Positions 2,033 to 20,792 of a stretch of DNA of 26,126 nucleotides are shown here, in pieces. Within the stretch, counting starts at the first letter, position 1; each line of letters opens with the position of its first letter. Under the pieces are notes generated by a model that searched no databases, was not told the DNA's origin, and saw only the letters and a program-made list of their open reading frames with translations. The position numbers and the translations under genes were made by a program. The DNA is from a virus, in IMG/VR virus record IMGVR_UViG_3300028589_000042, positions 1 to 26,126 of that record. One strand, given 5' to 3'.

Positions 2033-3931
2033 GTGCCTGACACCCCCACGTATGGCGATGTCCTGCGGTACGACGACCGGACGGTCCCGCAGGCCACCGG
2101 AGGCGTGAGCCAGAACCCGTTCGCTGAGCTGGGCAGCACCGGCCTGAAGCGTGCCACCGGCATCATCGACGAGGAGTACCTGCCCGCCCTGCGTGGGCGC
2201 AAGGCCGTCAAGGTCTTCAAGGAGATGTCCGACAACGACCCGATGGTGGGGTCGCTGCTCTTCGCGGTTGAGAAGCTGCTGCGTCAGGTCACCTGGCGAG
2301 TGGAGTCCGTGGACAACACCCCCGAGCACGCCCAGGCCCAGGAGTTCCTGGAGCAGTGCATGGAGGACATGTCCCACACCTGGGACGACCTGATCGCCGA
2401 GATCCTCTCCTGCCTCATCTACGGCTGGTCCTGGCACGAGATCGTCTACAAGAAGCGGGTCGGGCCCTGGGAGAAGGACCCCACCAAGAAGAGCAAGTTC
2501 ACCGACGGGAAGATCGGCTGGCGCAAGATGCCGGTCCGCTCCCAGGAGACCCTGCTGCGCTGGATGTTCGACGAGACCGGCGGCGTGCAGGCCATGGTGC
2601 AGATGGCCCCGCCGTACTACACGACCACCGTGCTGCCGATCAACAAGTCCCTGCTGTTCCGCACCGGGCTGCACAAGGGCAACCCCGAGGGTCGCTCGAT
2701 CCTGCGCACCGCCTACCGCCCCTGGTTCATGAAGAAGCGCCTGGAGGAGTTCGAGGCCATCGGCGTCGAGCGTGACCTCGCAGGCATGCCCGTGGCCAAG
2801 GTGCCCTCCTCCTACATGAACGCCCAGAAGGGGAGCAAGGAGCACAACGCCTTCCTCGCCTTCAAGCGCATGGTGCAGAACGTCCGCCGGGACGAGCACG
2901 AGGGCCTGGTCTTGCCACTGGAGTACGACCCGGTCACCAAGCAGCCCATGTTCGAGTTCGAGCTGATGTCCTCGGGTGGAGCGCGCTCCTTCGACACCTC
3001 CGCGATCATCCAGCGCTACGAGCAGCGCATCCTGATGACCGTGCTGGCCGACTTCATCATGGTCGGCCACGAGGGTCAGGGCTCCTACGCGATGCACGTG
3101 GACAAGACCGGCATCTTCCGGGCCGCGCTGAACACCATCGCCGAGACCATCGCGGACACCTTCAACCGCCATGCCGTGCCCCGGCTGTTCGAGCTCAACG
3201 CCTGGAAGCTCGACGAGCTGCCCAAGATCGTCCCGAACAACGTCGACCCGCCCAACCTGGCCGAGCTGGGCCAGTTCATGACCTCGATGGCAGGCATGGG
3301 CATGGAGTGGTTCCCCGACCCCGACCTGGAGAAGTTCCTGCGCGAGGTGGCCCACCTGCCGGAGATGCCGGAGGAGGTCGAGGAGATGCGTCGGGACATG
3401 GCCCAGCAGTCCAACCTCATGTCCTACGCGCAGACCCGCATGGACGTGGAGGGGATGGCCCAGCAGGAGCAGCGGGTTGCCGCTGGCGAGTCCCCAGCAC
3501 AGGCTCAGATGGCCCAGGAGCAGCCCTCAGAGGCCGCGCAGGAGCAGCAGGTGGTCGGGGAGCAGCGTGCCCAGGCCAGGGCCTCTATGGACCCCGAGGT
3601 GCAGCAGTCGCAGCAGGTCCAGATGCAGCAGCAGATGGAAATGCAGGCTCAGGACCCCACCGCTCAGGTCAAGGCCGAGTCCGACCAGGCCAAGGCCAAG
3701 GCTGACATGGACATGAAGTCCATCGACCTGCAGACCCGAGAGCGCGATGCCAAGCGGGATCAGCAGCTCAAGGACCGTGACGCCAAGCGGGACCAGGACG
3801 TCAAGGACAAGGACGCCAAGCGCGACCAGCAGATGAAGGACGCGGACCTCAAGCGCAAGGAGCGCGAGGCCCGGATCAAGGCGAAGAACGGGCCCACTCC
3901 CCCGAAGACCAAGAAGAAGGCCAAGCCATGA
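2033..3931 (+). CDS. Phage portal protein
   Basis: This is the dodecameric ring protein at the capsid vertex through which DNA is packaged and ejected. GTG 2033 has GAGAGGA (2019-2025) seven bases upstream. The 632 residues contain the usual portal layout: an early helical region (MVGSLLFAVEKLLRQVTWRV), a conserved-looking core (CLIYGWSWHEIVYKK), and a stem-to-crown region around residues 300-440 (RILMTVLADFIMVG). The type resembles the DUF935/Mu gp29-like portals common in actinophages. The last 190 residues are unusual: Gln-rich, then Lys/Asp-rich with three near-identical 11-residue repeats from residue 572 (DAKRDQQLKDR and variants), predicting a long charged helix. The papain-like protease gene starts within its stop codon. 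No terminase gene precedes it in this window. Confidence 0.88.
   Translation: MPDTPTYGDVLRYDDRTVPQATGGVSQNPFAELGSTGLKRATGIIDEEYLPALRGRKAVKVFKEMSDNDPMVGSLLFAVEKLLRQVTWRVESVDNTPEHAQAQEFLEQCMEDMSHTWDDLIAEILSCLIYGWSWHEIVYKKRVGPWEKDPTKKSKFTDGKIGWRKMPVRSQETLLRWMFDETGGVQAMVQMAPPYYTTTVLPINKSLLFRTGLHKGNPEGRSILRTAYRPWFMKKRLEEFEAIGVERDLAGMPVAKVPSSYMNAQKGSKEHNAFLAFKRMVQNVRRDEHEGLVLPLEYDPVTKQPMFEFELMSSGGARSFDTSAIIQRYEQRILMTVLADFIMVGHEGQGSYAMHVDKTGIFRAALNTIAETIADTFNRHAVPRLFELNAWKLDELPKIVPNNVDPPNLAELGQFMTSMAGMGMEWFPDPDLEKFLREVAHLPEMPEEVEEMRRDMAQQSNLMSYAQTRMDVEGMAQQEQRVAAGESPAQAQMAQEQPSEAAQEQQVVGEQRAQARASMDPEVQQSQQVQMQQQMEMQAQDPTAQVKAESDQAKAKADMDMKSIDLQTRERDAKRDQQLKDRDAKRDQDVKDKDAKRDQQMKDADLKRKEREARIKAKNGPTPPKTKKKAKP
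3746..3844 (+). repeat. Three 33-bp repeats coding hendecad units in the portal tail
   Basis: Three tandem units (3746-3778, 3779-3811, 3812-3844) encode DAKRDQQLKDR, DAKRDQDVKDK and DAKRDQQMKDA, with a decayed fourth unit beginning DLKRKER. An 11-residue period suits a hendecad coiled coil. Codons differ between units, so this is not a very recent DNA duplication. Confidence 0.75.
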
Positions 3932-4587
3932 CCGAGCGGGTGTTGGACTGGAAGCCGCGCTTCGACACCCGGTCGTTGGGCCATAAGGTCTCGCTTGCCT
4001 ACGCCCTGGAACGCCCGCTGCGGGCCCGGATCTGGAAGCGCACGGTCTGGCTCGACCAGGGCAGCGAGGGGGCCTGTGTGGGCTTCTCCTGCGCGCACGA
4101 GATGGCCCTCACCCCGCGCCGCTGGTCCCCGGAGTACACCGAGCAGATGGCACGGGTGCTCTACCGGGAGGCGCAGAAGCGTGACCAGTGGGCCGGGGAG
4201 AGCTACGAGGGCTCCTCGGTGCTGGGCGGGATGCAGGCGCTGAAGGACCGCGGGGAGATCAAGAGCTACCGCTGGTGCACCACCGTGGAGGAGGTGCTCT
4301 GGGCGGTGTCCTACATCGGCCCGGTGGTGATCGGGGTCAACTGGTACGCCGGGATGTTCGCCCCGGACGCCAACGGGCACCTGCACACCAAGGGACGGCT
4401 GGCCGGTGGGCACGCCATCGTCATCGGGGGCATCGACCCCAAGAACGAGCGGGTGTTGCTCTACAACTCCTGGGGCAAGGGCTGGGGCAAGGACGGCGCG
4501 GCCTGGTTGTCCTTCGCCGAGCTGGACCGGCTGCTGCATGAGGACGGAGAGTTCGCCGTCCCCCTCAAGACCCGGCTGGTGGTCTGA
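3928..4587 (+). CDS. Papain-like (C1 family) cysteine protease
   Basis: A 219-residue protein with the papain-family active-site pattern: the oxyanion Gln44 and catalytic Cys50 in DQGSEGACVGFS, the catalytic His162 in GGHAIVIGG, and Asn180 in YNSWGKGWG. These appear in the correct order and spacing for a compact C1 peptidase without a propeptide. There is no signal peptide, so it would act inside the infected cell or in the virion. The ATG overlaps the portal stop (ATGA) and the next micro-gene overlaps its own stop, so it is made with the portal. Possible roles are processing of head proteins or attack on host proteins after delivery. The enzyme class is well supported; the target is unknown. 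Confidence 0.85.
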   Translation: MTERVLDWKPRFDTRSLGHKVSLAYALERPLRARIWKRTVWLDQGSEGACVGFSCAHEMALTPRRWSPEYTEQMARVLYREAQKRDQWAGESYEGSSVLGGMQALKDRGEIKSYRWCTTVEEVLWAVSYIGPVVIGVNWYAGMFAPDANGHLHTKGRLAGGHAIVIGGIDPKNERVLLYNSWGKGWGKDGAAWLSFAELDRLLHEDGEFAVPLKTRLVV

Positions 4588-4649: not shown

Positions 4650-4888
4650 TGACTCCTCGACCGCACAGCACCACCTTCGCGGTGAAGAGCATGCTCCGGG
4701 TGCTGGCCATCGCCTTCTGGCTGTTGGGCTTCGTGCGTGCCTCGGACGCGCTCCGGATGGCCTATCACCCCGATGCCGTCTACTGGCCCTGGGTGGACGC
4801 CATCTTCGGGCTCTGTTTCTTCCTCATCGCCACCATCCTCTGGATGGAGGCCCGACATGTGGGGTCTTCCCCGGACAGGCATGAGTGA
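4649..4888 (+). CDS. Two-TM small membrane protein, 79 aa
   Basis: ATG 4649 overlaps the stop of the micropeptide. The protein has two hydrophobic segments, about residues 16-30 (LRVLAIAFWLLGFVR) and 50-68 (AIFGLCFFLIATILWM), joined by a loop with aromatic residues (HPDAVYWPWVD). The ends are polar. The size and two-TM plan would fit an accessory holin or other small phage membrane protein, but it lies about 2 kb before the endolysin, so I do not call it a holin. The next gene starts in its stop region. Confidence 0.6.
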   Translation: MTPRPHSTTFAVKSMLRVLAIAFWLLGFVRASDALRMAYHPDAVYWPWVDAIFGLCFFLIATILWMEARHVGSSPDRHE

Positions 4889-6825
4889 TGCTTGAGATGA
4901 CGCAGTCCTCCTTCGAGGAGGTCGAGAAGATGTCGCCGCGGGATGCCCCCGCGGTGATCGGCGCGCACTGGACCACCCGGCTGTCCCGGGTCGCCGACCG
5001 GGTCGAGCCCTACGCGGCCAAGCGCCGCAAGCCGATCAACCGCCCCCTGGTGGATCGACACCTGCCCACTGTGAAGCGGGTCGGCGGGAAGCTGGTCACC
5101 ACCGGGCGCACCAAGGCCGCCGAGACGATCCGCTCGATCTCCTACGACGTGTCCTCGATCAACGACAAGGACAAGCTGATCCGCGAGGTGGCCACCGGGC
5201 AGGGCAAGCTCCGCCCCGTGTCCAAGTCCTACATCCCTGGTAAGGGCTTCGTGCCTGCCTCCCAGATCCCCAAGACCCAGCTCCGCTCGCTGGCGCAGGG
5301 AGAGCGCAAGGCAGGGGTGGCCCGCCTGAAGCGACAGGCGGCCGAGCACTCCACCGCGACGAGGGAGCAGAACAACGCCATCTCCCGGGCGCACCGTGAG
5401 ATGACTGGGCCGCCTCGTCTCTTCGACCCGAACCGGCCCAGCCACTCCACCGTGAACTCGGGACGCAAGGCCTACGACCGGTTCAACTTCAGCCCCTTCA
5501 ACGCCCACACCGCGGGGATGCTGGGTGACGCCAAGGCCGCCGCGTTCAAGCATGGCGGTCGTCGGTCCAAGGGCTTCATCGCTGCCAAGCCCGACGCCTC
5601 GGATGCGGTGATGCGACACGAGACCGCGCACCTGACTCCCAAACGCTCCTCGTACCGGATGCAGAACTTCAACGCTGGGCAGCTGGCTCGGGAGGAGGCC
5701 CGCGCTGACATGGCGGGCAACCACTCCTCGATGCGCTACAAGTCCTCGCACCGGGCCATCAGCAACAAGGGTGAAGGATCGGCCTACGCCATGGCCGCCA
5801 AGAACCCGGTGGCCCGCTGGATGACCCACAAGCAGCAGCAGGCACAGGGCGGCCAGTACAAGGACATGTTCTCCAGAGAGAACATGAAGGGGTACCGCGA
5901 GGTGCAGAACCGCATCGCTGCCTCCCGGACGCGCAAGGGGCAGGTGCAGAAGTCGTACATCCCCGGGGTGGGCTGGAAGCCGATCACCGCCGCCACTGCC
6001 AAGCAGAAGGCCCGCATCCCTGGTGCGCACGCCAAGATGCACCGGGTCAACCGGCTGGACGCTGCGTACCAGAAGGGGGACGCCAACCTGCGGGACGCCG
6101 TCGCCGACCTGCCCAAGAAGCACTTTGGTGTCAAGCTCGACCGCGACTCCTGGACCGACCAGGCCGGGACCTACCGCAGGGGTAGCGCCAAGCGTGGCAA
6201 GAGCTACGTCGAGGGCTCTGCCACGACACGCACTAAGCAGAAGGTGATCCAGGCTCACGAGGACCAGCACGCAGCGCCTCGTCGCAGTGGCTACCGGCTG
6301 CACCGCCAGATCCACCCCAACAAGCAGAAGCTGATGCGTGAGGAGGCCCGCGCGGACTACCGCTCGGCGGGTCACTACAGCAACCCCAGGCAGGACTCCG
6401 GGTACGCCCACGTGGCGCGACGACGCGACAAGGCCCTCAAGCAGCCCAACCGTCCCGCCAAGGGATCTGGAATCCAGGCGCGCGTCATGCGCGAGTACGG
6501 AGAAACCGACTGGAAGAGGGCCACCAACCAGATGGCCTACGAGGGGCAGGCACAGCGAACACTCAGCACAGTGGGCTACACGATGAGCCCCAAGGTGCGG
6601 GATCGCTCCGTCGACGCCTACCGGGACCTGCAGAACCGGATGCGCGCCAAGGGCGTCCCCGAGGGCGGGGTCAAGAAGTCCTTCCAGCCCTGGGACGGGG
6701 TGCACTCCGAGGTGTCCAAGATGGGCCCAGACCAGAGTGAGTTGCACGTCGCAGGATCCTCAAATCAGAAGCGCAAGGCGCGTCTTCGCAAGCTCCCACC
6801 TGACGCCACCCGGAGGGTCTGTTGA
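4885..6825 (+). CDS. Protein with two tandem HExxH metallopeptidase-like modules, 646 aa
   Basis: Counting from GTG 4885 (ATG 4888 is equally possible), the protein carries two zincin-like sites. Module A has HETAH at 245-249 with EEARAD at 270-275; module B has HEDQH at 458-462 with EEARAD at 486-491. HExxH followed 20-25 residues later by a Glu is the gluzincin arrangement, and the repeated (R/K)xxYR and EEARAD context shows the modules are homologous. Three related linkers, VSKSYIPG at 112, VQKSYIPG at 354 and VKKSFQPW at 596, are spaced exactly 242 residues apart and bracket the modules. The protein is basic and soluble. It could be a virion-carried protease or effector cut into units at the linkers. 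The metallopeptidase call rests on motifs only. Confidence 0.65.
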   Translation: MMLEMTQSSFEEVEKMSPRDAPAVIGAHWTTRLSRVADRVEPYAAKRRKPINRPLVDRHLPTVKRVGGKLVTTGRTKAAETIRSISYDVSSINDKDKLIREVATGQGKLRPVSKSYIPGKGFVPASQIPKTQLRSLAQGERKAGVARLKRQAAEHSTATREQNNAISRAHREMTGPPRLFDPNRPSHSTVNSGRKAYDRFNFSPFNAHTAGMLGDAKAAAFKHGGRRSKGFIAAKPDASDAVMRHETAHLTPKRSSYRMQNFNAGQLAREEARADMAGNHSSMRYKSSHRAISNKGEGSAYAMAAKNPVARWMTHKQQQAQGGQYKDMFSRENMKGYREVQNRIAASRTRKGQVQKSYIPGVGWKPITAATAKQKARIPGAHAKMHRVNRLDAAYQKGDANLRDAVADLPKKHFGVKLDRDSWTDQAGTYRRGSAKRGKSYVEGSATTRTKQKVIQAHEDQHAAPRRSGYRLHRQIHPNKQKLMREEARADYRSAGHYSNPRQDSGYAHVARRRDKALKQPNRPAKGSGIQARVMREYGETDWKRATNQMAYEGQAQRTLSTVGYTMSPKVRDRSVDAYRDLQNRMRAKGVPEGGVKKSFQPWDGVHSEVSKMGPDQSELHVAGSSNQKRKARLRKLPPDATRRVC

Positions 6826-11330: not shown

Positions 11331-13271
11331 GTGACTGCAGGGATCCTCGACCCGTCCCCGGCGATGGCCGGGGCGCAGCTGAGCTCCACCGAGCAGGACC
11401 TGATCAGCCGGATCGACGCGGACACCAAGAACGCCCACACCCTGGCCAAGGTTGCCGGGGTGCTGGGCGCGTCCATGTTCGTCTACCGGATGTACATGCG
11501 GCGTCGGCTTCGGGAGGAGATGAAGGAGACCCTGCCGGAGAAGCTGCCTGTGATCGCCGGTGCGGTCTTCGGATCCTTCCTGCCGTCCTGGGTGCATGTG
11601 ATCGCTCCTGCGGTCCTGGCGGGCTACCTAGAGGGCCACAGGGCGGTCAAGCTCGGCAAGGTGCCCGAGCCCTACCTGCGAGACGTCGCCGAGACGTACG
11701 CCAGGGAGCTCGGGGAGCACATCAACGAGGTCAGCTACGACGCGATGATGCAGGGCTTCCATGCCCAGGTGAACCGTCGTGTGCCTGCGCGCCGGGCGAT
11801 GGAGAACGTCATCTCGGCGTACGGGGTGCCCGCGCGGACCATGAACGCCCTGGTGAAGATCTGGACCGGCGAGGACAACAAGGTGCTCTCCCGGAGCCCC
11901 TCTCCCAGCAAGCGGGACCAGAAGGCCGCCTCGCTCATCGAGCGGGCCTTCAAGCTGCGCTCGGAGCAGTTCGGTGACACCGAGGCCTGGACCGCCAGCC
12001 GTCAGGGCAAGCAGATCACCTGGATGTACAACCTGAGCAAGGGCACCCTCCCACCCGGCACCACTCGGGTCTGGCGCACCGCCCGAGACGAGCGGGTCTG
12101 TCCCTCCTGCGGGCCGCTGGACAAGACCGAGGTGCCGCTGGACCAGCCCTTCATCACCGACATGGGTGAGTACTGGTCCCCTCCGCTGCACCCCAAGTGC
12201 CGGTGCGACATCGACCTGGCCATGAGCATCACCCTCGCGGTCAAGGAGTCGGTGGGGAAGGCTATGGGCGATGATCCCTTTGACCGAGACCGACGCGGAC
12301 GATTCGCCCGTGACGAGGCTCGCCTGGCTCCTGAAGTGGCCCGGCCTGACTTTGAACCCGCGCCGGTCCGTCGCACCGCGCGTGAGGTGGCGGAGGAGTA
12401 CCGCCGCCTGAAGAAGACGAAGAAGAAGCCGTCCTTCAAGCCGGTCTCCTTGGGTGGCCCCAAGCTCGGCGGGGTGTCCTTCAAGCCCGTCGACTTCTCC
12501 GCCAAGGAGACGCCGCAGCTGGGCAAGCCCGACCTGGGCCAGAAGCCTGACTTCACTCAGCCGCGCCCGATCATCGGACGCGAGAAGCCGGTCATCCAGA
12601 AGCCGCCGTTGAAGCTGCCCGCGTTCAAGGGGCTGGAGCTGGACTTCCCCACGTTGGCCTTCGGGCCGACCCCCAAGGGCGTGGTGCGCCTGGCCGTCCC
12701 GGTCTACGGCATCAAGGCCAGCGACGAGATCGGTGTGGACATCTACACGGGTCCGAGCGAGCGGGTGTACGAGCGCTCCGAGCTGGACACCGCGCTGACG
12801 GCGTACTGGGACGCCGTCAAGGAGAAGGACATGATGATGACCTTCGGCCGGGAGGGTCACATCACCTACGAGGACCCGCACTGGCCGGACCACACCATGC
12901 ACGTGGAGAAGGCGATCTACGGATACGTCTGGAACGACGCGCTCTCCGCCGACCGGAACCAGCTGCACCGCGAGACCTACCCGGTGCTCATCATCGACAA
13001 CAACACCGGCAGGGAGTTCTACTTCGACGTCTCGGCCTACGAGCTGGCCCAGGAGAACGGCATCCTGGAGGAGCTGGAGGAGAAGAAGCCGGTCGTCTTC
13101 AAGATGCAGCACGGCTGGCCGGACGGGACGAACACCAAGCCCGGGCAGCATGGGCCAGACGTCATGCGCTACAACGAGGGCAACTGGCAGATCCAGGGCG
13201 AGATCGTCGACGACTCACTGCTCTCGGAGTACCCGCACTACCAGAGGGCCTACGTCACACCCATCGCGTAG
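11331..13271 (+). CDS. MuF-domain minor head protein with C-terminal extension, 646 aa
   Basis: GTG 11331 follows the previous stop by three bases. Residues 240-295 hold the Phage_Mu_F signature: VWRTARDERVCPSCGPLD (Cys257, Cys260) and LHPKCRCDI (His287, Cys290, Cys292), normally found in a minor head protein placed next to the portal. The N-terminus has two hydrophobic segments (about 39-54 and 71-100), unusual for a head protein. After the MuF domain come FDRDRRGRF (318-325), a Lys/Pro-rich linker, and a separate C-terminal domain (about 460-646) with no motif I can name. MuF proteins often carry toxin or enzyme domains at the C-terminus, so this domain may be an effector. The gene ends facing the minus-strand cassette. 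Confidence 0.8.
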   Translation: MTAGILDPSPAMAGAQLSSTEQDLISRIDADTKNAHTLAKVAGVLGASMFVYRMYMRRRLREEMKETLPEKLPVIAGAVFGSFLPSWVHVIAPAVLAGYLEGHRAVKLGKVPEPYLRDVAETYARELGEHINEVSYDAMMQGFHAQVNRRVPARRAMENVISAYGVPARTMNALVKIWTGEDNKVLSRSPSPSKRDQKAASLIERAFKLRSEQFGDTEAWTASRQGKQITWMYNLSKGTLPPGTTRVWRTARDERVCPSCGPLDKTEVPLDQPFITDMGEYWSPPLHPKCRCDIDLAMSITLAVKESVGKAMGDDPFDRDRRGRFARDEARLAPEVARPDFEPAPVRRTAREVAEEYRRLKKTKKKPSFKPVSLGGPKLGGVSFKPVDFSAKETPQLGKPDLGQKPDFTQPRPIIGREKPVIQKPPLKLPAFKGLELDFPTLAFGPTPKGVVRLAVPVYGIKASDEIGVDIYTGPSERVYERSELDTALTAYWDAVKEKDMMMTFGREGHITYEDPHWPDHTMHVEKAIYGYVWNDALSADRNQLHRETYPVLIIDNNTGREFYFDVSAYELAQENGILEELEEKKPVVFKMQHGWPDGTNTKPGQHGPDVMRYNEGNWQIQGEIVDDSLLSEYPHYQRAYVTPIA

Positions 13272-13313: not shown

Positions 13314-13685
13314 TCAGCCTTCACCCCTGGACTGCACCGTCGGTCCAGGGGTGTCGTGCTTCTTGCCGACCCAGTTCAGGTGCGGCTCGTGGGTCTTCTG
13401 GAACCGCAGGAAGGTGTAGACCCGGAAGACCAGCAGCACGTCGATGGCGATGCCGATGATCATCCCCCAGGCGTTCTGTGTCCAGGTCTGAGACAGGAGG
13501 GTGTCGCCCTTGGTGACCAGGCCGACGACGGAGCGGGCGTAGAGCAGGAAGATGATGATCACCCAGCCGGTGGCGTTCAGCGACGCAGGCCGGAACCAGT
13601 TGCGGGGCCGGTGCAGCACCAGGAAGAGCCCCGAGGCGATGAGTCCGGTGAGGATGATGACCCACCAGACGATGAGCAGCGTCAC
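13314..13685 (-). CDS. Three-TM membrane protein, 123 aa
   Basis: This is the last gene of the minus-strand cassette; its GTG start overlaps the stop of the upstream gene (GTGA). It has three hydrophobic segments: about 3-25 (LLIVWWVIILTGLIASGLFL), 39-60 (TGWVIIIFLLYA) and 73-92 (GMIIGIAIDVLLVFRVYTF). The C-terminus is polar and its codons contain the terminator-like stem. Small multi-pass proteins of this type are common in actinophages and are sometimes called holins; no motif decides it. An overlapping frame on the same strand (13321-13665) was rejected because it lacks membrane character and coupling. Confidence 0.68.
   Translation of the reverse strand: MTLLIVWWVIILTGLIASGLFLVLHRPRNWFRPASLNATGWVIIIFLLYARSVVGLVTKGDTLLSQTWTQNAWGMIIGIAIDVLLVFRVYTFLRFQKTHEPHLNWVGKKHDTPGPTVQSRGEG
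13322..13353. terminator. Convergent hairpin, terminator-like
   Basis: CACCCCTGGAC (13322-13332) and GTCCAGGGGTG (13343-13353) form a perfect 11-bp stem with a ten-base loop. It lies between the plus-strand MuF gene and the end of the minus-strand cassette and overlaps the last codons of the minus-strand gene, so it could end transcription from both sides. Confidence 0.55.
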
Positions 13686-13921
13686 GATTTCTCTCCCGAG
13701 CTTGGCGTGGCGTAGTACCTCAAGAATTGCTCGCAGAGCCAGTCATCGTAGTGATTGGCTGCGTTGTGCTCCCGGAGCCTGCTGGTGATCTCCTTGGATT
13801 CGTGCAGGTTGCGCACCGCTCGCTTCAGGTCACGGTCCGCCTGGGCATTGGAGTTCTCAGCGCATCGGAGCGCGGCTCGCGCCGCTGACTCTGGGCGGTG
13901 GCGCTTCCAGAACCATCTCAT
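13682..13921 (-). CDS. Small helical protein, 79 aa
   Basis: The ATG (complement of 13919-13921) overlaps the stop of the upstream gene. The product starts with a basic aromatic patch (MRWFWKRHRP) that could touch the membrane, followed by a charged helix and LREHNAANHYDDWL. The form resembles small actinophage proteins placed in DUF7620, but this is a tentative likeness. Codon third positions look less GC-rich than in the neighbouring head genes. It is coupled at both ends within the three-gene cassette. Confidence 0.6.
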   Translation of the reverse strand: MRWFWKRHRPESAARAALRCAENSNAQADRDLKRAVRNLHESKEITSRLREHNAANHYDDWLCEQFLRYYATPSSGEKS

Positions 13922-14256
13922 CGCTGTGGGCCTCGTTGCTTTTGAGTGCGTCGGTGGTCGAGTTCCTCTAGGAGCGAGGTGGTGGTTCTGGCCGCTTCGG
14001 TCGCCGCCTCGGCTCGCTCCTCTGCCTTCGACAGCGCGTCTCTAGTCTTCTGGTGTGCCTCTTGCTCCTTAGCGAAGGCGGCCTTCCAGGAGTCACGGTC
14101 AGCCTCGGCCATCTCCCTGGGTCGCTTCGTGTCCAGCACACCTGTGACGACCAACGCGAGGATGATCCCGCCTGGGCCCCACGTCACGAGGATAGAGACG
14201 AAATCAATCGTTGAGGGGTCTGGGGCGGCAGCAACCAGGCTGAGTGCCTCGATCAC
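13918..14256 (-). CDS. Single-TM protein with coiled-coil tail, 112 aa
   Basis: This is the first gene of the minus-strand cassette. GTG (complement of 14254-14256) is preceded by GGGGAG at good spacing. A single membrane segment at about 19-41 (VSILVTWGPGGIILALVVTG) is followed by a long charged helix (about 47-100, rich in Glu, Ala, Lys and Arg) that should form a coiled coil. This resembles a spanin-like or holin-like accessory membrane protein, but there is no lipobox or signal. It would be transcribed from the 94-base divergent region shared with the protease gene. Confidence 0.65.
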   Translation of the reverse strand: MIEALSLVAAAPDPSTIDFVSILVTWGPGGIILALVVTGVLDTKRPREMAEADRDSWKAAFAKEQEAHQKTRDALSKAEERAEAATEAARTTTSLLEELDHRRTQKQRGPQR

Positions 14257-14350: not shown

Positions 14351-15505
14351 ATGGATCCCATTGCCAAGGCGCTGGAGCAGCGTGGCGACACTCTCGCCGA
14401 GGTAGCCGAACTGCTGTATGGCGATGGTGCCTGGGAGTACGTCTCCAAGAAGAGCAACTCAGATCAGCAGCGCCGCGAGCGCCGACAGGCTCAGGTGGGA
14501 CTGGCTTCCAACATCCTCGGCCTCGCCGCGGGTACCGCAGGCACCGCCGAGGCAGCTCGGCAGTACCGGGACGCCAAGCAGGAGGCCTCCGGCGTGAAGC
14601 CGTACGCCGCCAAGCACCGCGCCGAAGGTCGGATCGCCAGTCTCAAGCCCATCAAGGCAACCGCCGGTCTGATCCGTCGTCACCCGGTGAAGGTCGCCGC
14701 CGCGGGCCTCGGCCTGCAGGTCGGCAACGTGGCCGGGGATGCCGTGGCCAACCGGGTGCTGGCCCGGTCCGCGAAGAAGAAGCCTGTCTCCAAGGGTCTG
14801 GTCAAGGACTCCAAGCAGGTCTACGGCAACGTGAAGACGACCGCCCAGAACGCCGAGCGTGCCTCGGAGGCTGCGGCGAGCAGCGCCGAGAAGGTCGAGC
14901 GGCTCATCCCCAGCCAGAAGAAGGCTGTGGTGCTCGGTGCCGGGGCGGTCTCGGCACTCGGTGCCTCCACCTACGGGGCCAGCTACTACGGCACCAAGCA
15001 CGGCACCCGGGCCGCGGCGAAGCCCAAGAAGCAGCGGAAGTTCAAGCTGCACACGGTGGACACCAAGGCGGGCACGGTCGAGAAGAAGTTCGACTGGGAT
15101 GCCACCTTCGAGATCTCCAAGAAGGACGACGACAAGCGTCAGGTCTTCGGCTGGGCCTCGGTCATCACCAAGGACGGCGCACCGGTGGTCGACCTCCAGG
15201 ACGACTACATGGCCATGGAGACCATCGAGAAGGCCGCCTACGACTACGTGAAGTCCTCCCGCAAGGGCGGGGACATGCACCGCCGCAACGGGGCTGAGCC
15301 GCACCACGTCTCGGACATGATCGAGTCGTTCGTGGTGACCGAAGAGAAGAAGGAAAAGCTCGGCCTCCCTGCTGACTTCCCCACGGGCTGGCTGGTCGGA
15401 TTCCAGGTCAACGACGAGGACACCTGGAAGCTCGTCAAAGACGGGAAGCGAACGCAGTTCTCCATCCACGGCTCCGGCCAGCGCGTAGAAAAGGTACTCG
15501 ACTGA
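14351..15505 (+). CDS. XkdF-like prohead protease (Peptidase_S78_2 type) with long N-terminal extension
   Basis: The C-terminal 130 residues match the XkdF-like head protease pattern: VFGWASV at 265, VVDLQDDYM, IEKAAYDYV, His310 in GDMHRRNG, a WLVGFQVNDEDTWKLVKDGK segment, and Ser371 in TQFSIHGSG. His310 and Ser371 are the likely catalytic pair. Such enzymes cut scaffold and capsid proteins during prohead maturation. The N-terminal 250 residues are unusual: basic and helical, with a Gly/Ala hydrophobic stretch at 192-215 ending in SYYGTKH, a form repeated in neighbouring head proteins. The motif IAKAL occurs at 4-8. The next gene starts in its stop codon (TGATG). Confidence 0.78.
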   Translation: MDPIAKALEQRGDTLAEVAELLYGDGAWEYVSKKSNSDQQRRERRQAQVGLASNILGLAAGTAGTAEAARQYRDAKQEASGVKPYAAKHRAEGRIASLKPIKATAGLIRRHPVKVAAAGLGLQVGNVAGDAVANRVLARSAKKKPVSKGLVKDSKQVYGNVKTTAQNAERASEAAASSAEKVERLIPSQKKAVVLGAGAVSALGASTYGASYYGTKHGTRAAAKPKKQRKFKLHTVDTKAGTVEKKFDWDATFEISKKDDDKRQVFGWASVITKDGAPVVDLQDDYMAMETIEKAAYDYVKSSRKGGDMHRRNGAEPHHVSDMIESFVVTEEKKEKLGLPADFPTGWLVGFQVNDEDTWKLVKDGKRTQFSIHGSGQRVEKVLD

Positions 15506-16674
15506 TGACGACTGTCGCGGAGCAGAAGCGGCTGTACAACAAGCACGCCACCGAGAAGAAGGAGCGTCGTGTCGCCGCGGCCACCGTCGGCGGTGCCGCC
15601 CTCGGCGTGGGCATGGGCATGGGCGGCTCTGTGGCCGTCTCGCGCGGCGTCAACGCGGGACGTGGTGCTGCCTGGGCCCTGCGGAACGGACCCCGGGCCA
15701 AGGGCGTCAAGCCTGCCTTCGAGCGGGCCAAGCAGGGTGCCAAGTACGGGGCCAGGATCCCCAACAGCCGCACCGAGGCGCTGACCACCGGTCCGGTGCC
15801 GATCATCGCCGGTGGCTACGGCGGTGCCTACGGTGGCATGTTGGCCGCTGACCGCCGCCAGTACCCGGAGTACAAGCGCACCAACCAGGGCTTCGCGCCC
15901 CGGAAGAAGGCCAAGGAAGTGCACAAGGCCTTCGCCGGAGGTGGCAGCGTGCAGCGCGGCCTGTCCCTGATCGCCCAGGCTCCCAAGCCCACCAAGGTGG
16001 CCCCGCAGAAGTTCTCGGCACCCACCCCGCGGCTGACCCCGCTGAAGCCGAAGCAGCCCAAGGCTCCCACCATCCACAAGGCGTTCACCCCGATGCTCTC
16101 CTCGACCCGGGCGATGCGCCTGGGTCAGGTCGGGACCACCTCGGTGGCTCGTGCCCGGCAGAGCTTCGGTGGTGCGGCCAGCCGTCAGTTCGCTGCCCCG
16201 AACATCGCCCAGGGCAAGCGTGCCGCCGGAGCTGCTCGCTTCGGTGCTGCCTCTGGTGGTGCCGCGGTCCCGCGTGGTGCCGGGGCGGCTGCCAGCGCCA
16301 TGGCGGGCAAGCTGCGTCCGGCGGCTCCCCAGGGGATGGGTCGCGCTGCGTTCACTCAGACCCAGGGTGGCGGAGCGGTGCCTCGCGGTGCCGGTGCCTC
16401 CGCGCACGCCGCGGCCAGCCGTCTGCGCCAGCCCGCCGGTCGTCACCGTGGTGCCGGGGTCTACCGCCAGGGCGCTCAGAAGACCCAGGCCTTCGGCCAG
16501 CGCGGACTGTCTGCGGGCCAGTCGGCAGCCCAGCGTGGCTACGCTGCCGGTCAGCAGGCTCGCCAGAAGGCGGTCGGCTTCGCCAACCAGCACAAGAAGC
16601 CTCTCGCCATCGGTGGCGGAGCAGTCGCGGTTGGTGCGGGCGGCGGGATGTACGCCGGGAACCGGAAGCGCTGA
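15505..16674 (+). CDS. Basic Gly/Ala-rich head-region protein with glycine zippers, 389 aa
   Basis: ATG 15505 overlaps the protease stop. The protein is strongly basic and dominated by Ala, Gly, Arg and Gln. It has three glycine-zipper, membrane-like stretches: about 23-45 (VGGAALGVGMGMGGSVAV), 97-115 (PIIAGGYGGAYGGMLAA) and the extreme C-terminus 366-389 (AIGGGAVAVGAGGGMYAG then NRKR). EVHKAF at 138-143 and TIHKAF at 189-194 resemble the linker motif of the metallopeptidase-like protein. Two copies of an AVPRGAGA unit lie in the second half. I recognise no family. Its position between the protease and scaffold suggests a head-assembly or ejected internal protein. Confidence 0.72.
   Translation: MTTVAEQKRLYNKHATEKKERRVAAATVGGAALGVGMGMGGSVAVSRGVNAGRGAAWALRNGPRAKGVKPAFERAKQGAKYGARIPNSRTEALTTGPVPIIAGGYGGAYGGMLAADRRQYPEYKRTNQGFAPRKKAKEVHKAFAGGGSVQRGLSLIAQAPKPTKVAPQKFSAPTPRLTPLKPKQPKAPTIHKAFTPMLSSTRAMRLGQVGTTSVARARQSFGGAASRQFAAPNIAQGKRAAGAARFGAASGGAAVPRGAGAAASAMAGKLRPAAPQGMGRAAFTQTQGGGAVPRGAGASAHAAASRLRQPAGRHRGAGVYRQGAQKTQAFGQRGLSAGQSAAQRGYAAGQQARQKAVGFANQHKKPLAIGGGAVAVGAGGGMYAGNRKR
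16255..16440 (+). repeat. Imperfect internal repeat, AVPRGAGA unit
   Basis: Two segments, 16255-16326 and 16369-16437, encode related units: GGAAVPRGAGAAASAMAG and GGGAVPRGAGASAHAAAS, each followed by a basic-Leu-Arg and Pro/Ala-rich tail. The DNA has diverged at many third positions. Confidence 0.6.
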
Positions 16675-17840
16675 TGGCCACGCTCACCCCGCTGCAGCAG
16701 CAGCGACCCGTGGTGCTGCGCGACACCCTGTCGGGTCGGTTCGTGCAGTCGGGTCGGCGTCAGACCGCCGACGTCCTGGTGGGCAGTGGTGTCTCCAAGC
16801 GGCGTCCGATGTCGGACGAGGAGCTGGCCGCGCGCAAGAAGGCCCAGGGGTACATCTCCCGGACCACCACCACGCACGGCCAGGCCGCCCTCGGTGCCAA
16901 GGGTCTGGGCTGGAAGGCCGGACGGGCCGCAAGCGCAGCCCAGGGAACCCGTCATGGAGTGACCGCAGCCCGGCGGGCCAAGTCCTGGAACAACCGCTCG
17001 TTGAACCTAGCCATCGTTGGCTCTGGTGTCGGTGGCGTCGGCGGCTACAACTTCGCCAGCTACACCGCCGAGGACGGTCGTCGTCAGCGCAACATCAAGA
17101 AGAACTGGAGCAGCGGGATGGACTTTGGACTGAGCTCGGTCCAGCAGGGCACCAACCTGGAGGAGATCTCCAAGGCGGGCTTCAGCTACGGCGGGCCTGC
17201 CCGCCTCCAGACGGTGAAGTCCACTGCACGGGAGGTGCGCCGTGGACCGCAGCTGCTGGCCTCCTCGGCCGCTCCGCCTCCCCGGGCGCGGGCGTTCGAC
17301 CCCAAGAACCCTTGGGGCGACCCTCCGCGCAAGTCGCGCAAGAAGGCCTACATCGCCGGTGGTGCTACCGCCGCCGGGGCCGCGGGCGCGGGTGGCACCT
17401 ACTACGCGGTGAAGAAGGCCTACGACCCCGAGCGCAACCGCAATCGGCGTCTCGACGCCTACGCCAACGGTGCCATGGTCGGCTCGGGTGCCCTCGGCAC
17501 CGGGGCGCTCTACTACGGCAACAAGGCCATCGGTCGCAAGCGAACGGTGGCTGCGCCGCCTGACCCGCGGGCCTTCCACCCCAAGACCCGGGATCTGCGG
17601 GACGAGAAGGGGCCGAAGAAGGGCAGCAAGGCGTACGCCACCAGCGGGAAGGTGACGAGCCGCACTGGGCTGCGCGCCGTCAACGACATCCCCGAGTTCC
17701 GTGGCGGTATCAGGAACGCAGGCAAGGCCGTCGGTCTTGCCGCGGGTGCAGCTGGCCTCGCAGTTGGTTCGCACCGAATCCGTCAGTACAAGAACGGTCG
17801 CGGGCGTACATACAAGCCCATGCGGCAGATCGAGTACTGA
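16674..17840 (+). CDS. Basic Gly/Ala-rich head-region protein with four glycine-zipper segments, 388 aa
   Basis: ATG 16674 overlaps the previous stop. Near the N-terminus is LRDTLSGRF (15-23), close to the RDxxGRF motif of the MuF and 990-residue proteins. Four Gly/Ala hydrophobic stretches follow: about 110-125 (LNLAIVGSGVGGVGGY), 225-248 (AYIAGGATAAGAAGAGG, then TYYAVKK), 266-284 (GAMVGSGALGTGALYYGNK) and about 352-370 (GKAVGLAAGAAGLAVGS). Between them are Arg/Lys-rich segments and two related RAFxPK units (RAFDPKNPWGD, RAFHPKTRD). EISKAGF fits the recurring linker motif. There is no known family. It is very likely related in build to the preceding protein and to parts of the protease and scaffold. 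Confidence 0.72.
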   Translation: MATLTPLQQQRPVVLRDTLSGRFVQSGRRQTADVLVGSGVSKRRPMSDEELAARKKAQGYISRTTTTHGQAALGAKGLGWKAGRAASAAQGTRHGVTAARRAKSWNNRSLNLAIVGSGVGGVGGYNFASYTAEDGRRQRNIKKNWSSGMDFGLSSVQQGTNLEEISKAGFSYGGPARLQTVKSTAREVRRGPQLLASSAAPPPRARAFDPKNPWGDPPRKSRKKAYIAGGATAAGAAGAGGTYYAVKKAYDPERNRNRRLDAYANGAMVGSGALGTGALYYGNKAIGRKRTVAAPPDPRAFHPKTRDLRDEKGPKKGSKAYATSGKVTSRTGLRAVNDIPEFRGGIRNAGKAVGLAAGAAGLAVGSHRIRQYKNGRGRTYKPMRQIEY

Positions 17841-17881
17841 GGGTGTTGCAGGCACTTGGAAACTAAGAGCGAGGTACAGCA

Positions 17882-18979
17882 ATGGCCAAGCGCGTAAGAG
17901 AAATCCGTGACCTGATCATCGACGAGGTGTCGTTGGTCGACCGGGGAGCGAATCAGCACGCGGCAGTGACTATCGCCAAGTCTTATGACGGCGAGGAGGA
18001 CCAGGGAATGGACATCTACGACGAGCAGGGCAACCCGCTCGACGCCGACTCCCTTGAGGACGGGGCCATCGTCTACGGCGAAGACGGCCAGGCGTACCTC
18101 TTCGAGCTCGGTGACGACGACGAGGCTGAGGGCGTCCACGAGGACGACCTTGAGGCTGAGTACGAGGAAGAGCTGGAGCCCGAGCTTGTCGGGAAGGCCT
18201 TCAACTTCAACTCTGCGAACCGCTGGGCTCGCACTGTTGGCCGGGGCGGCAAGCCCCCGCGCGGCGCGAAGGACTCCGTCACTGGCATCAAGGGCCAGCT
18301 GGGCGGCCCGAAGGGCAAGAAGGGCCCGAAGCGCAACGACGGCGGTGTCCGCGGCGCTCGCGCCTCCTTCGGTGAAGGGCACGCCAAGTTCGCTCGCAAC
18401 CACCCCAGCGCTCACTCGGCACTCATCTACGGAGGCGGCGGCGCGGCTGCGGCTGGCGTCGGCGGTGCCACCTACTACGGAGTGAAGAAGAACATGGGTG
18501 CTGCTGACATCCTTCGCGAGGAGCTGTCCAAGGCTCTGAACGATGACGACCGCGACTACGCGATCTCCAAGGCGCTTGAGGCCGTTGACGCCTACGCCGA
18601 CCAGGCTGCTGAGGCCGAGGAGATCGCCAAGGCCGAGCGCGAGCTTCGCCTGGACCGTGAGTACACGGAGATCGCCAAGTCCTACAACCTGCCGGTGCAC
18701 CCCGAGGTGCTCGGCCCGGTGATGAAGCGTCTCGCGGAGTACATGTCCGACGAGGACTGTGAGGTCATCGCCAAGTGCTTCGAGGCCGCCTCTGAGGCGC
18801 TCTTCGAGGAGACCGGCTACATGGGTGGCGGCGACAACGTCGACATCTACCAGCAGGTCGAGGCAGCTGCCATGCAGCACGTCGGCAAGGCCGGTGTGTC
18901 CCACGAGCAGGTCGTCGCAGACCTCTTCGACATGAACCCTGGCGCGTACGACGAGTACCTCGCCGAGACCCAGCACTGA
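17882..18979 (+). CDS. Probable capsid scaffold or head-maturation protein, 365 aa
   Basis: ATG 17882 follows a 41-base gap with a weak GAGCGAGG ribosome site. The N-terminus IIDEVSLVDRGANQHAAV (12-28) is the segment that opens many phage head proteases and their scaffold partners. An acidic region (about 36-100), a basic Gly-rich region, a Gly/Ala hydrophobic stretch at 180-203 (GGGGAAAAGVGGATYYGVKK) and a long acidic helical C-terminus follow. The helical, acidic C-terminus directly before the decoration and major capsid genes is typical of scaffolds. IAKSY (31-35), VGKAF (103-107), ELSKAL, AISKAL and IAKSY (264-268) may be cleavage sites. No catalytic residues are seen. Confidence 0.6.
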   Translation: MAKRVREIRDLIIDEVSLVDRGANQHAAVTIAKSYDGEEDQGMDIYDEQGNPLDADSLEDGAIVYGEDGQAYLFELGDDDEAEGVHEDDLEAEYEEELEPELVGKAFNFNSANRWARTVGRGGKPPRGAKDSVTGIKGQLGGPKGKKGPKRNDGGVRGARASFGEGHAKFARNHPSAHSALIYGGGGAAAAGVGGATYYGVKKNMGAADILREELSKALNDDDRDYAISKALEAVDAYADQAAEAEEIAKAERELRLDREYTEIAKSYNLPVHPEVLGPVMKRLAEYMSDEDCEVIAKCFEAASEALFEETGYMGGGDNVDIYQQVEAAAMQHVGKAGVSHEQVVADLFDMNPGAYDEYLAETQH

Positions 18980-18996
18980 GACAGGAGGAAATCTAA

Positions 18997-19413
18997 ATGA
19001 GCTACGAAGAGAGCCTCCGGTCGATCTCGCTGAACGCGGACTCGTCCCTGGCCGTCTACACCGGGGTCCCCAACACCCCCGGCGCTGCGAACCCGAACTA
19101 CGGTCTGCAGTACCGCTTCGTGAAGATCACGGCCGCCCACCAGGTCGGCCTGGCCACCACGAAGGCCACTGACCTCGCGGTCGGCGTCATGCAGAACAAG
19201 CCGCAGGTGGTCGGCCAGGCCGCCACCGTCGGCATCGCAGGTGTCACCAACGTCATGGCCGGTGCGGCCGTGGCAGCCGGTGCCGCCGTGACCTTCGACG
19301 CCAACGGCCGGGGCATCACCGGCACCGTTGGAACCGACAAGATCGTCGGTATTGCTCTGGGCGCTGCTGGTGCTGCGAACGAGCTGTTCCCCGTCCAGCT
19401 CCGGATCGCCTGA
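18997..19413 (+). CDS. Capsid decoration (cement) protein, DUF2190-like
   Basis: AGGAGG lies just before ATG 18997. The 138-residue product is a small beta-rich protein full of Ala, Gly, Val and Thr, with the pattern of phage decoration proteins placed directly before the major capsid gene: RFVKITAAHQVGLAT, AVGVMQNKPQVVGQAATVGI, GAAVAAGAAVTFDANGRG and KIVGIALGAAG. Proteins of this kind bind the outside of the expanded head and strengthen it. Position and composition support the call; no catalytic function is expected. Confidence 0.8.
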   Translation: MSYEESLRSISLNADSSLAVYTGVPNTPGAANPNYGLQYRFVKITAAHQVGLATTKATDLAVGVMQNKPQVVGQAATVGIAGVTNVMAGAAVAAGAAVTFDANGRGITGTVGTDKIVGIALGAAGAANELFPVQLRIA

Positions 19414-19423
19414 GAGGTAGGCA

Positions 19424-20419
19424 ATGAACCCCACCCAGAGCGACCTTCACGTCAACGCCCCACTGACGAACGTCTCGGTCGCATACATCCAGAAGTCCGA
19501 TGCGTTCATCGCGACCAAGGTCTTCCCGAAGGTGTCGGTCTCCAAGCAGTCCGACCTCTACTGGAAGTACTCGAAGTCCGACTGGCGTCGTACCGACGTG
19601 CAGCGTCGTGCGCCCTCCACCGAGACCCCCGGTGTCGGCTGGAACGTGACCACGGACAGCTACTTCGCGCACGTCTACGGCGTCCACAAGGACATCGACG
19701 ACCAGCTCCGTGCGAACGCTGACTCGCGGTTCCGTCTCGACTCCGACGCCACCTCGTTCGTCACCAACCAGCTCCTCCTGAAGCGCGACCTCGACTGGGC
19801 CGCGACCTACTTCAAGACCGGCGTCTGGGGCACCGACTACACCGGCGTGGACTCCGCCCCCACGGGCGCGCAGCTCCTGCGCTGGTCGGTCACCTCCTCC
19901 GACCCGATCTCCCAGCTGGCCACGCTGCAGATCAACTTCGTGCAGCAGACCGGCTTCAAGGCCAACACGCTGGTCATCGGCGCGAACGTGCTGAAGGCCC
20001 TGAAGAACCACCCGGCCATCATCGACCGGATCAAGTACACCCAGAAGGGAATCGTGACGACTGACCTCATCGCGACCCTCTTCGACGTGGACAAGATCCT
20101 GGTCTCGTACGCCACGGTGGCCACCGGCCCGCAGATCCCGGACGCAGCTGCCCAGGACGCTGCTGCGACCTTCGACTTCATCGCGAACCCGAACTCGGCG
20201 CTCCTGTGCTACACCCCGAGCTCCCCCTCGCTGATGCAGCCTGCGGCTGGCTACACCTTCACCTGGAACGGCTACCTCAGCGGCAACGCCGAGGGCATTC
20301 GGGTCAAGCGGTTCCGGATGGAGCAGATCGCCTCCGACCGCATCGAGGGTGAGATGACCTACGACATGCGGGTCATCTCCAAGGACGTCGGCGTCTACCT
20401 GAACAACATCGTCGCCTGA
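19424..20419 (+). CDS. Major capsid protein
   Basis: This is the main shell protein, 331 residues, with GAGAGG before ATG 19424. The start (LTNVSVAYIQKSDAFIATKV, then FPKV) is characteristic of a large actinophage capsid family with the HK97 fold (Phage_cap_E-like). Further features are VYGVHKDIDDQLRANAD, the helix NQLLLKRDLDWAATYF, NTLVIGANVLKALKNHP and the C-terminal MTYDMRVISKDVGVYL. It lies between the decoration protein and the connectors, and a very strong hairpin follows 12 bases beyond its stop. There is no long N-terminal delta domain, consistent with a separate scaffold. Confidence 0.9.
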   Translation: MNPTQSDLHVNAPLTNVSVAYIQKSDAFIATKVFPKVSVSKQSDLYWKYSKSDWRRTDVQRRAPSTETPGVGWNVTTDSYFAHVYGVHKDIDDQLRANADSRFRLDSDATSFVTNQLLLKRDLDWAATYFKTGVWGTDYTGVDSAPTGAQLLRWSVTSSDPISQLATLQINFVQQTGFKANTLVIGANVLKALKNHPAIIDRIKYTQKGIVTTDLIATLFDVDKILVSYATVATGPQIPDAAAQDAAATFDFIANPNSALLCYTPSSPSLMQPAAGYTFTWNGYLSGNAEGIRVKRFRMEQIASDRIEGEMTYDMRVISKDVGVYLNNIVA

Positions 20420-20431
20420 CGACAGACCCAC

Positions 20432-20471
20432 CCAGAGGGGGCTGAGAGCTAAGCCTCTCGGCCCCCTCTGG
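20432..20471 (+). terminator. Strong 17-bp hairpin after the major capsid gene
   Basis: CCAGAGGGGGCTGAGAG (20432-20448) pairs with CTCTCGGCCCCCTCTGG (20455-20471) with one T-G wobble and a six-base CTAAGC loop; outer ACAGA and TCTGT can add pairs. There is no clear U tract. It probably reduces read-through into the less-needed connector genes or protects the capsid mRNA. AAAGGAG of the next gene begins six bases later. Confidence 0.75.
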
Positions 20472-20489
20472 TCTGTAAAGGAGCAGAAG

Positions 20490-20792
20490 ATGATCAGTCC
20501 ATGGGGAGTGGACCACGGAGCCGACGTGGTCTCCAAGCGTCTTTCTCACTACGTCGCTGGCGGGGCGTTGGGTGCCGGTGCAGGCGTGGCGGGCGACCAG
20601 ATCATGCGTCGCACCGACAAGGAGTACAAGGCCAAGGCGCGCAAGGACCCTGTGGGTCTCGCCGCCGTCGGAGGTCTTGGTGGTGTCGCTGGTGGCACCG
20701 CCCTGGCCGGTCCCCGGGTCGGTCTCGGGCTGGGAGCCGGTGTTGCTGGTTCGCTGTACGCGCTTAACCGGAAGAAGAAGAAGGAACGATGA
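20490..20792 (+). CDS. Small glycine-zipper protein, 100 aa
   Basis: AAAGGAG (20477-20483) precedes ATG 20490. The protein has Gly/Ala hydrophobic stretches at about 21-35 (YVAGGALGAGAGVAG) and about 55-92 (LAAVGGLGGVAGGTALAG and VGLGLGAGVAGSLYAL), ending in a basic NRKKKKER tail. VVSKRL at 13-18 resembles the motif of the scaffold. It is the smallest of the set of glycine-zipper head-region proteins and nearly consists of that module alone, so it may be a membrane or self-assembly element. The next gene overlaps its stop by four bases. Confidence 0.65.
   Translation: MISPWGVDHGADVVSKRLSHYVAGGALGAGAGVAGDQIMRRTDKEYKAKARKDPVGLAAVGGLGGVAGGTALAGPRVGLGLGAGVAGSLYALNRKKKKER

Follow-up and report, generated by a model that had tools for sequence, protein, structure and literature searches.

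Ejected internal head proteins have, to our knowledge, been well studied in T4, in podoviruses and in giant phages, but hardly in siphovirus-like phages. The present work deals with a DNA stretch of 26,126 nucleotides, a 26-kb fragment of an uncultured virus (IMG/VR record IMGVR_UViG_3300028589_000042, positions 1 to 26,126; hereafter "the window"), and with the Gly/Ala-rich stretches that recur in the proteins specified by its head genes. Judged by comparative sequence analysis, these stretches are probably parts of internal capsid cargo, which would be addressed by a short N-terminal leader, cut after Lys by an XkdF-family protease and delivered with the DNA.

In phage T4, a short N-terminal capsid-targeting sequence is present on the non-essential internal proteins IPI-III and Alt, and is removed by the prohead protease gp21 (PMC9958956). 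The present locus resembles this arrangement in that several head proteins share a common N-terminal peptide followed by variable cargo, and in that the motif at the end of this leader is also encountered in the scaffold (E-[VI]-S-K versus [VI]-x-K), as is expected of a protease cut site, cleavage being predicted here. The T4 head protease also digests the scaffold, and T4 cargo can enter the host; the corresponding steps are proposed for the present locus. The leader and cut motifs differ on sight, the T4 cut motif being L/I-x-E while Lys would occupy P1 (the residue preceding the cut) in the present locus, which furthermore possesses an XkdF-type protease, a siphovirus-like head with a Mu-type portal, C-terminal Gly/Ala stretches and many pieces joined into polyproteins.

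In the giant phage SPN3US, internal and other head proteins carry N-terminal propeptides that are cut by the gp245 protease at a short motif (PMC10052503). Some of these propeptides are cut repeatedly and their length is 20-254 residues, as compared to about 14 residues for the leader described here, and both the motif and the type of phage are different. The capsid protein of HK97, which is cut between K103 and S104, provides a precedent for Lys at P1 and shares with the present locus a small residue at P1' (PMC10275583), yet it contains a single site within the capsid protein itself (delta domain), and no cargo leader system is described there. Finally, the polyvalent proteins of phages and conjugative elements are multi-domain and linked to head genes; packaging and injection are predicted for them, and their domains include metallopeptidase, ADP-ribosyltransferase (ART), ParB-like and MuF-linked ones (PMC5512222). 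In the window, a head-linked protein of 646 amino acids (aa) has two HExxH modules, putative effector domains read from the motif only; unlike in polyvalent proteins, the domains here appear to be meant for separation by the head protease, and many of the pieces are tiny, basic and Gly/Ala-tailed. A term search of PMC5512222 for a leader signal, XkdF or glycine-rich segments retrieved none, and no description of the leader was found in the open-access literature searched.

The window specifies a portal of Mu type, a MuF protein, a head protease of XkdF type, two large proteins without assigned family, a scaffold-like, a cement and a capsid protein, neck proteins and a tape measure. For comparison, 80 related IMG/VR loci were retrieved via the capsid protein (67-93% identity to that of the window), and their genes were called in this analysis. 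In most of the longer loci the gene order is conserved: MuF and protease come first, then one or more variable Gly/Ala-rich proteins (referred to as cargo proteins), and lastly scaffold, cement and capsid. As compared to the capsid protein, the 388-aa cargo protein of the window is much less conserved, with 24-45% identity to the 29 homologues aligned.

Leader proteins and lysine motifs

Many small genes of the related loci, located after the capsid gene or between the protease and scaffold genes (in L080, L135 and L136 between the portal and MuF genes), start with a leader of about 14 residues with the consensus M-x-S-A-[F/W]-G-[V/I]-[D/E]-H-G-x-E-[V/I]-S-K, of which 90 distinct sequences were recovered and which is located at or before residue 10 in 73 of 75 non-redundant proteins. 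Searches in which the H of the leader was swapped for any other residue gave 0-6 matches, and those in which the P1 Lys was swapped for R, D, E, N, Q, S, T or H gave 0-5. A blind scan of 2.9 million IMG/VR contigs with a degenerate 29-base pattern retrieved 48 stretches, 46 of which carried head genes of this lineage as well. Among 113 distinct 24-base leader cores, the entropy amounts to 0.24, 0.20 and 1.48 bits at codon positions 1, 2 and 3, respectively; third codon positions being free to vary, selection is seen to act on the peptide, and a DNA-level signal was rejected. The leader resembles the scaffold N-terminus of cultured relatives (ETSGVDHPAHxxGWVVxKSA), a likeness which suggests that it may mimic the scaffold.

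Past the leader, each of the 75 non-redundant leader proteins has a basic sequence, with a median charge of +0.143 per residue versus -0.126 for the scaffolds. They differ widely between loci, where they occur in up to five copies, and a Gly/Ala stretch is present in 47 of them, being located at most 20 residues from the C-terminus in 40 of these 47. In two leader proteins of 438-452 aa (L036:6501-7856 and L023:6479-7792), 'DGNHRA' segments appear ParB-like by eye, with no Pfam match.

Two lysine motifs, E-[VI]-S-K and [VI]-x-K-[AS]-[FYW], occur in leader proteins and cargo genes at some ten to several hundred times the expected frequency, and there is also an excess of the former in the proteases and of the latter in the scaffolds. 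For E[VI]SK, the observed and shuffled counts are 34 and 0.1 in leader proteins, 19 and 0.4 in cargo genes, and 21 and 1.1 in proteases, against none observed in capsid, cement and neck proteins and 1 observed with 1.0 shuffled in tape measures; capsid and cement proteins lack both motifs, neither motif is enriched in neck proteins, and any excess in tape measures is weak. Control motifs (Arg, reversed) were mostly near expectation. An alignment of 71 scaffold homologues has eight columns in which Lys is conserved at a level above 60%, and at each of them position -2 is occupied by V, I, L or F. In the scaffolds of six cultured phages, whose capsid proteins are about 40% identical, V or I stands at -2 of Lys 44 times versus 16.8 expected, as compared to 9-16 times at other offsets, and no such excess before Lys is seen in the capsid proteins of the same six phages. 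Considering these distributions together with the HK97 precedent, we infer that the head protease is likely to cut after the Lys of a [V/I]-x-K motif.

Pieces delimited by lysine motifs

The protease of the window, assigned by a Peptidase_S78_2 match of 71.9 bits versus a curated cut-off of 24, contains a piece extending from residue 31 (start 'VSK') to residue 157 which in relatives L068 and L018 sits outside the protease gene, in the neighbouring cargo gene (42% over 137 aa, E 5e-10, and 33% over 99 aa, E 2e-7, respectively). This protein of L018 has a second match in the window, to the YDPERNRNRR region of the 388-aa protein (E 1e-5). The moving unit is therefore the piece delimited by lysine motifs. 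A comparable situation is encountered in the scaffold-like protein, where a basic Gly/Ala insert of about 98 aa is located between VGK↓AF and VKK↓NM (the arrow marking the predicted cut), both being [V/I]-x-K sites. The scaffold of the close relative L002 is without this insert and aligns on both sides of it, while in L015, L021, L033 and L042 this position is occupied by other inserts. The net charge of the insert is +15 versus -51 for the remaining scaffold. An AlphaFold2 model presents the insert as disordered, with a predicted local distance difference test (pLDDT) score below 50 nearly throughout, flanked by a small beta region (44-76) and an alpha-helical part (207-364); the scaffold model gave no significant match in the PDB. 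An earlier note on this DNA had proposed that a Gly/Ala module spread between genes, which in the light of the scaffold insert and the protease piece applies to pieces bounded by lysine motifs and not to the stretch itself.

In the 646-aa protein, each HExxH motif is followed by EEARAD. Homologues in L135 and L136 have the leader directly before SYIPG (MISAWGVEDGVSK↓SYIPG in L135), and in L135 a single gene combines the leader, the HExxH module and a C-terminal Gly/Ala tail containing basic residues (TTGLVGAGVGTGAGAGLYAHQRRKK). All six HExxH modules compared have the K↓S junction without exception, whether the sequence upstream of it is the leader or another segment. A KSYIPG DNA pattern was found in L135 and L136, a further match in L137 appearing to be in the wrong frame. 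A peptide-pattern search for relatives of the 646-aa protein found none, its distant alignment being too variable to search with. Neither the HExxH module nor the 646-aa protein matched Pfam or PHROG; given this and a poor structural model, the module is termed a putative metallopeptidase as a reading of the motif only.

Other observations concern individual cargo candidates. The C-terminal 'VKKSFQPWDGVHSEVSKMGPDQSELHV' of the 646-aa protein resembles a small gene of L135 (KKSAWGIVHKGSPDQSALHIPGN). A 1145-aa cargo protein (L052:5263-8697) with many Gly/Ala stretches has an ADP-ribosyltransferase-like segment by eye (YRGLS...LPMSSFTENEHIAHTF), with no Pfam match. In the window, a papain-like cysteine peptidase gene (3928-4587; Pfam Peptidase_C1, E 0.0014, just under the cut-off) immediately follows the portal gene and possibly specifies another cargo enzyme. 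Pfam and PHROG scans of the cargo proteins gave no significant match.

Table 1. Features of the window (positions in nucleotides from its first letter; an arrow marks a predicted cut).
Feature	Position	Strand	Residues	Remarks
646-aa protein	4885..6825	+		two HExxH modules (HETAH 245, HEDQH 458), each starting V-x-K↓SYIPG (K114, K356)
MuF-type minor head protein	11331..13271	+		one candidate cut site ESVGK↓AMGD (K310), between MuF domain and C-terminal domain
XkdF-type head protease	14351..15505	+		Peptidase_S78_2 at residues 253-380; Pfam E 6.4e-20
Protease N-terminal cargo-like region				predicted sites YVSK↓K (K33), PVSK↓G (K148), FEISK↓K (K257)
389-aa cargo protein	15505..16674	+		three Gly/Ala stretches; predicted cuts KEVHK↓AFAG (K141), PTIHK↓AFTP (K192)
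388-aa cargo protein	16674..17840	+		four Gly/Ala stretches; predicted cuts EEISK↓AGF (K167), YAVKK↓AYDP (K248)
Scaffold-like protein	17882..18979	+		predicted cuts after K33, K105, K230, K250, K266, K298, K336
Scaffold insert	18197..18490	+	106-203	carries Gly/Ala stretch 179-201; missing in L002
Cement protein	18997..19413	+		negative control; without strong Lys motif
Major capsid protein	19424..20419	+		query for relatives; both cargo motifs 0 in 81 homologues
100-aa leader-bearing basic protein	20490..20792	+		three Gly/Ala stretches; fragment 17-100 net +10
Leader MISPWGVDHGADVVSK of 100-aa protein	20490..20537	+		matches relatives' leader; predicted cut after K16
Gly/Ala stretch, XkdF protease			192-215	
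Gly/Ala stretches, 389-aa protein			23-46, 100-115, 367-385	
Gly/Ala stretches, 388-aa protein			112-125, 225-246, 266-282, 352-366	
Gly/Ala stretch, scaffold-like protein			179-201	
Gly/Ala stretches, 100-aa protein			21-35, 55-74, 77-92	

Properties of the Gly/Ala stretches

The Gly/Ala stretches exist in the genes in which the earlier note had reported them, at about the residues it gave, the 100-aa protein having three rather than two. They consist of 14-24 uncharged residues, about 60% of which are Gly or Ala, with a mean length of 17-19 residues in the relatives; their number and place vary, with 3 to 14 per locus and one in 17 of about 76 scaffolds. The Tyr-Tyr or Tyr-x ending is reproduced, with 0.18 aromatics per residue in the last five positions versus 0.03 mid-stretch in the window and a similar bias in relatives, while the Lys/Arg ending that had been described along with it belongs partly to the lysine motifs. 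The flanks are basic in the protease, cargo, scaffold and leader-protein classes (mostly 20-39% K/R and 4-13% D/E, the weakest being the scaffold C-flank with 18% K/R and 13% D/E), as compared to K/R contents of 10-12% for tape-measure flanks and of 3-7% for those of the cement protein.

The description of the stretches as glycine zippers did not hold: a G-to-G spacing of 4 occurs 20 times in the window versus 18 times in shuffled sequences (z of -1.4 to 2.4 in relatives), and a GxxxG zipper was rejected, this spacing being no commoner than composition predicts. A G-to-G spacing of 5 is over-represented in three classes of relatives (z 4.1-6.3, values possibly inflated by relatedness; z 2.0 in the window). 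Their membrane-like character is weak, a Kyte-Doolittle value of at least 1.6 over 19 residues being attained by 0-4% of stretches in the above classes and by no stretch in the named window genes, where rough apparent insertion free energies (dGapp) are 2.6-6.6 kcal/mol; classical transmembrane helices were rejected on account of this sub-threshold hydrophobicity.

Similarity between genes was assessed by comparing profiles, built from the stretches of other genes in relatives, to the window stretches and to their own shuffles (about 80 tests). A few stretches beat their shuffles, namely scaffold 179-201 (p=0.010) and 389-aa 367-385 (p=0.012) against the leader-protein profile, and 388-aa 225-246 against the protease profile (p=0.002), while most do not. 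Sequence similarity beyond composition is thus supported only in part, for these few pairs, and a single sequence family for all stretches was rejected.

Several observations relate to the window and its lineage at large. Homologues in named phages were sought by tblastn for the 388-aa protein, the scaffold and one leader protein, and none was found. The only capsid relative in genome collections was L134, a 12.5-kb contig of a Bacteroidetes metagenome-assembled genome (65% identity), which may be a viral contaminant. Between the MuF and protease genes (13314-14256), three small open reading frames lie on the minus strand of an otherwise plus-strand head operon; two contain strongly hydrophobic stretches, and the two that were scanned had no Pfam match.

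Proposed role of the cargo and alternatives

In the proposed mechanism, cargo that is either leader-tagged or contained within larger polyproteins would be built into the prohead together with the scaffold, which is strongly acidic. The XkdF-family protease would then cut after Lys in [V/I]-x-K↓small residue, by which the scaffold would be destroyed, the leader trimmed and the pieces separated, upon which scaffold peptides would leave the head and basic pieces remain. The released pieces would be small and very basic, many ending in a Gly/Ala stretch of 17-19 residues that has aromatic residues at its edge and is followed by a basic tail; some would carry the putative HExxH metallopeptidase. 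They would exit with the DNA into the newly infected cell. The leader, the distribution of the motifs, the charge pattern and the exchange of pieces between genes are read directly from the sequences, and from them we infer cutting by the XkdF protease, packaging and ejection. The Gly/Ala stretch appears too weakly hydrophobic to insert during synthesis; insertion or oligomer formation may instead take place at the membrane of the new host. The membrane-spanning length, ordered polarity and borderline hydrophobicity of the stretch make a membrane-active tail upon ejection the preferred and a plausible role, although this membrane step is the most speculative part of the mechanism and is advanced tentatively.

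A number of findings weigh against this mechanism. All cut sites are predictions for this lineage, and the Lys preceding the protease domain could be structural. The canonical leader is missing in 22 of 43 well-covered loci, which keep stretches and lysine motifs, and 28 of the 75 leader proteins have no Gly/Ala stretch. The motif counts include kin sequences, so that the nominal enrichments are inflated, non-redundant counts being lower though still above expectation, and the scaffold of KPP23, alone of the six cultured phages, has no significant [VI]xK excess (p=0.37). The AlphaFold2 model of the L135 HExxH protein (pLDDT 51) is too poor to confirm a metallopeptidase fold, and the stretches are below the threshold for classical transmembrane helices.

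The best-surviving alternative, which we nevertheless regard as unlikely, is a role in assembly, whereby stretches and basic regions would hold protease, cargo and scaffold together or attach them to the membrane of the producing cell, to be destroyed or left behind afterwards and not to reach a new cell. T4 proheads do assemble on the membrane, the protease and scaffold genes carry stretches as well, an acidic scaffold with basic partners suggests electrostatic association in the prohead, and the lysine motifs fit scaffold digestion. Nonetheless, the variable and dispensable nature of the stretches, most scaffolds being without one, speaks against the docking of head-assembly partners suggested by the earlier note; moreover, the variability and copy number of the leader proteins are expected of accessory cargo rather than of assembly parts, and the stretches are not hydrophobic enough to anchor stably in the producing cell.

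Somewhat less likely again is DNA condensation, in which histone-like basic peptides would neutralise DNA in the head and the stretches would be flexible or weakly self-associating spacers. The strongly basic nature of all leader proteins, the lack of cross-gene similarity beyond composition for most stretches and the absence of GxxxG enrichment would be in accordance with this, but spacers need neither a membrane-spanning length, nor a basic start, aromatic end and basic tail, nor a position at the extreme C-terminus, and HExxH modules in some of the cargo are likewise unaccounted for. That the motif and the stretches are unconnected products of low-complexity Gly/Ala proteins in a genome of high guanine-plus-cytosine content (G+C; 63-73% in the window) is very improbable, since, even though tape measure and cement proteins also have Gly/Ala runs, the leader, flank and motif controls largely refute it: stretches, lysine motifs or leader recur at 44-51% G+C (L018, L039, L080), flank charge is far from that of tape-measure and cement runs, and motif controls are near expectation.

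Returning to capsid cargo with an ejected membrane-active segment, the chances seem about even that the window belongs to a large uncultured lineage of tailed phages with its own capsid-loading code, consisting of the leader S-A-[F/W]-G-V-D-H-G-x-E-V-S-K and a Lys-specific protease, and delivering fast-changing small basic proteins, many with a C-terminal membrane-active Gly/Ala tail and some with a metallopeptidase domain. If true, this would represent a modular way for phage heads to carry proteins into the next cell. The short leader would allow the capsid cargo of the lineage to be listed from sequence, thereby providing a role for dozens of small genes that otherwise escape annotation, and, if it works in trans, would make a new tag by which phage capsids could be loaded with proteins of choice. 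The rule [V/I]-x-K↓small constitutes a testable cut rule for XkdF-type proteases, which apparently extends to the scaffolds of cultured Arthrobacter, Microbacterium, Rhizobium and Roseobacter phages.

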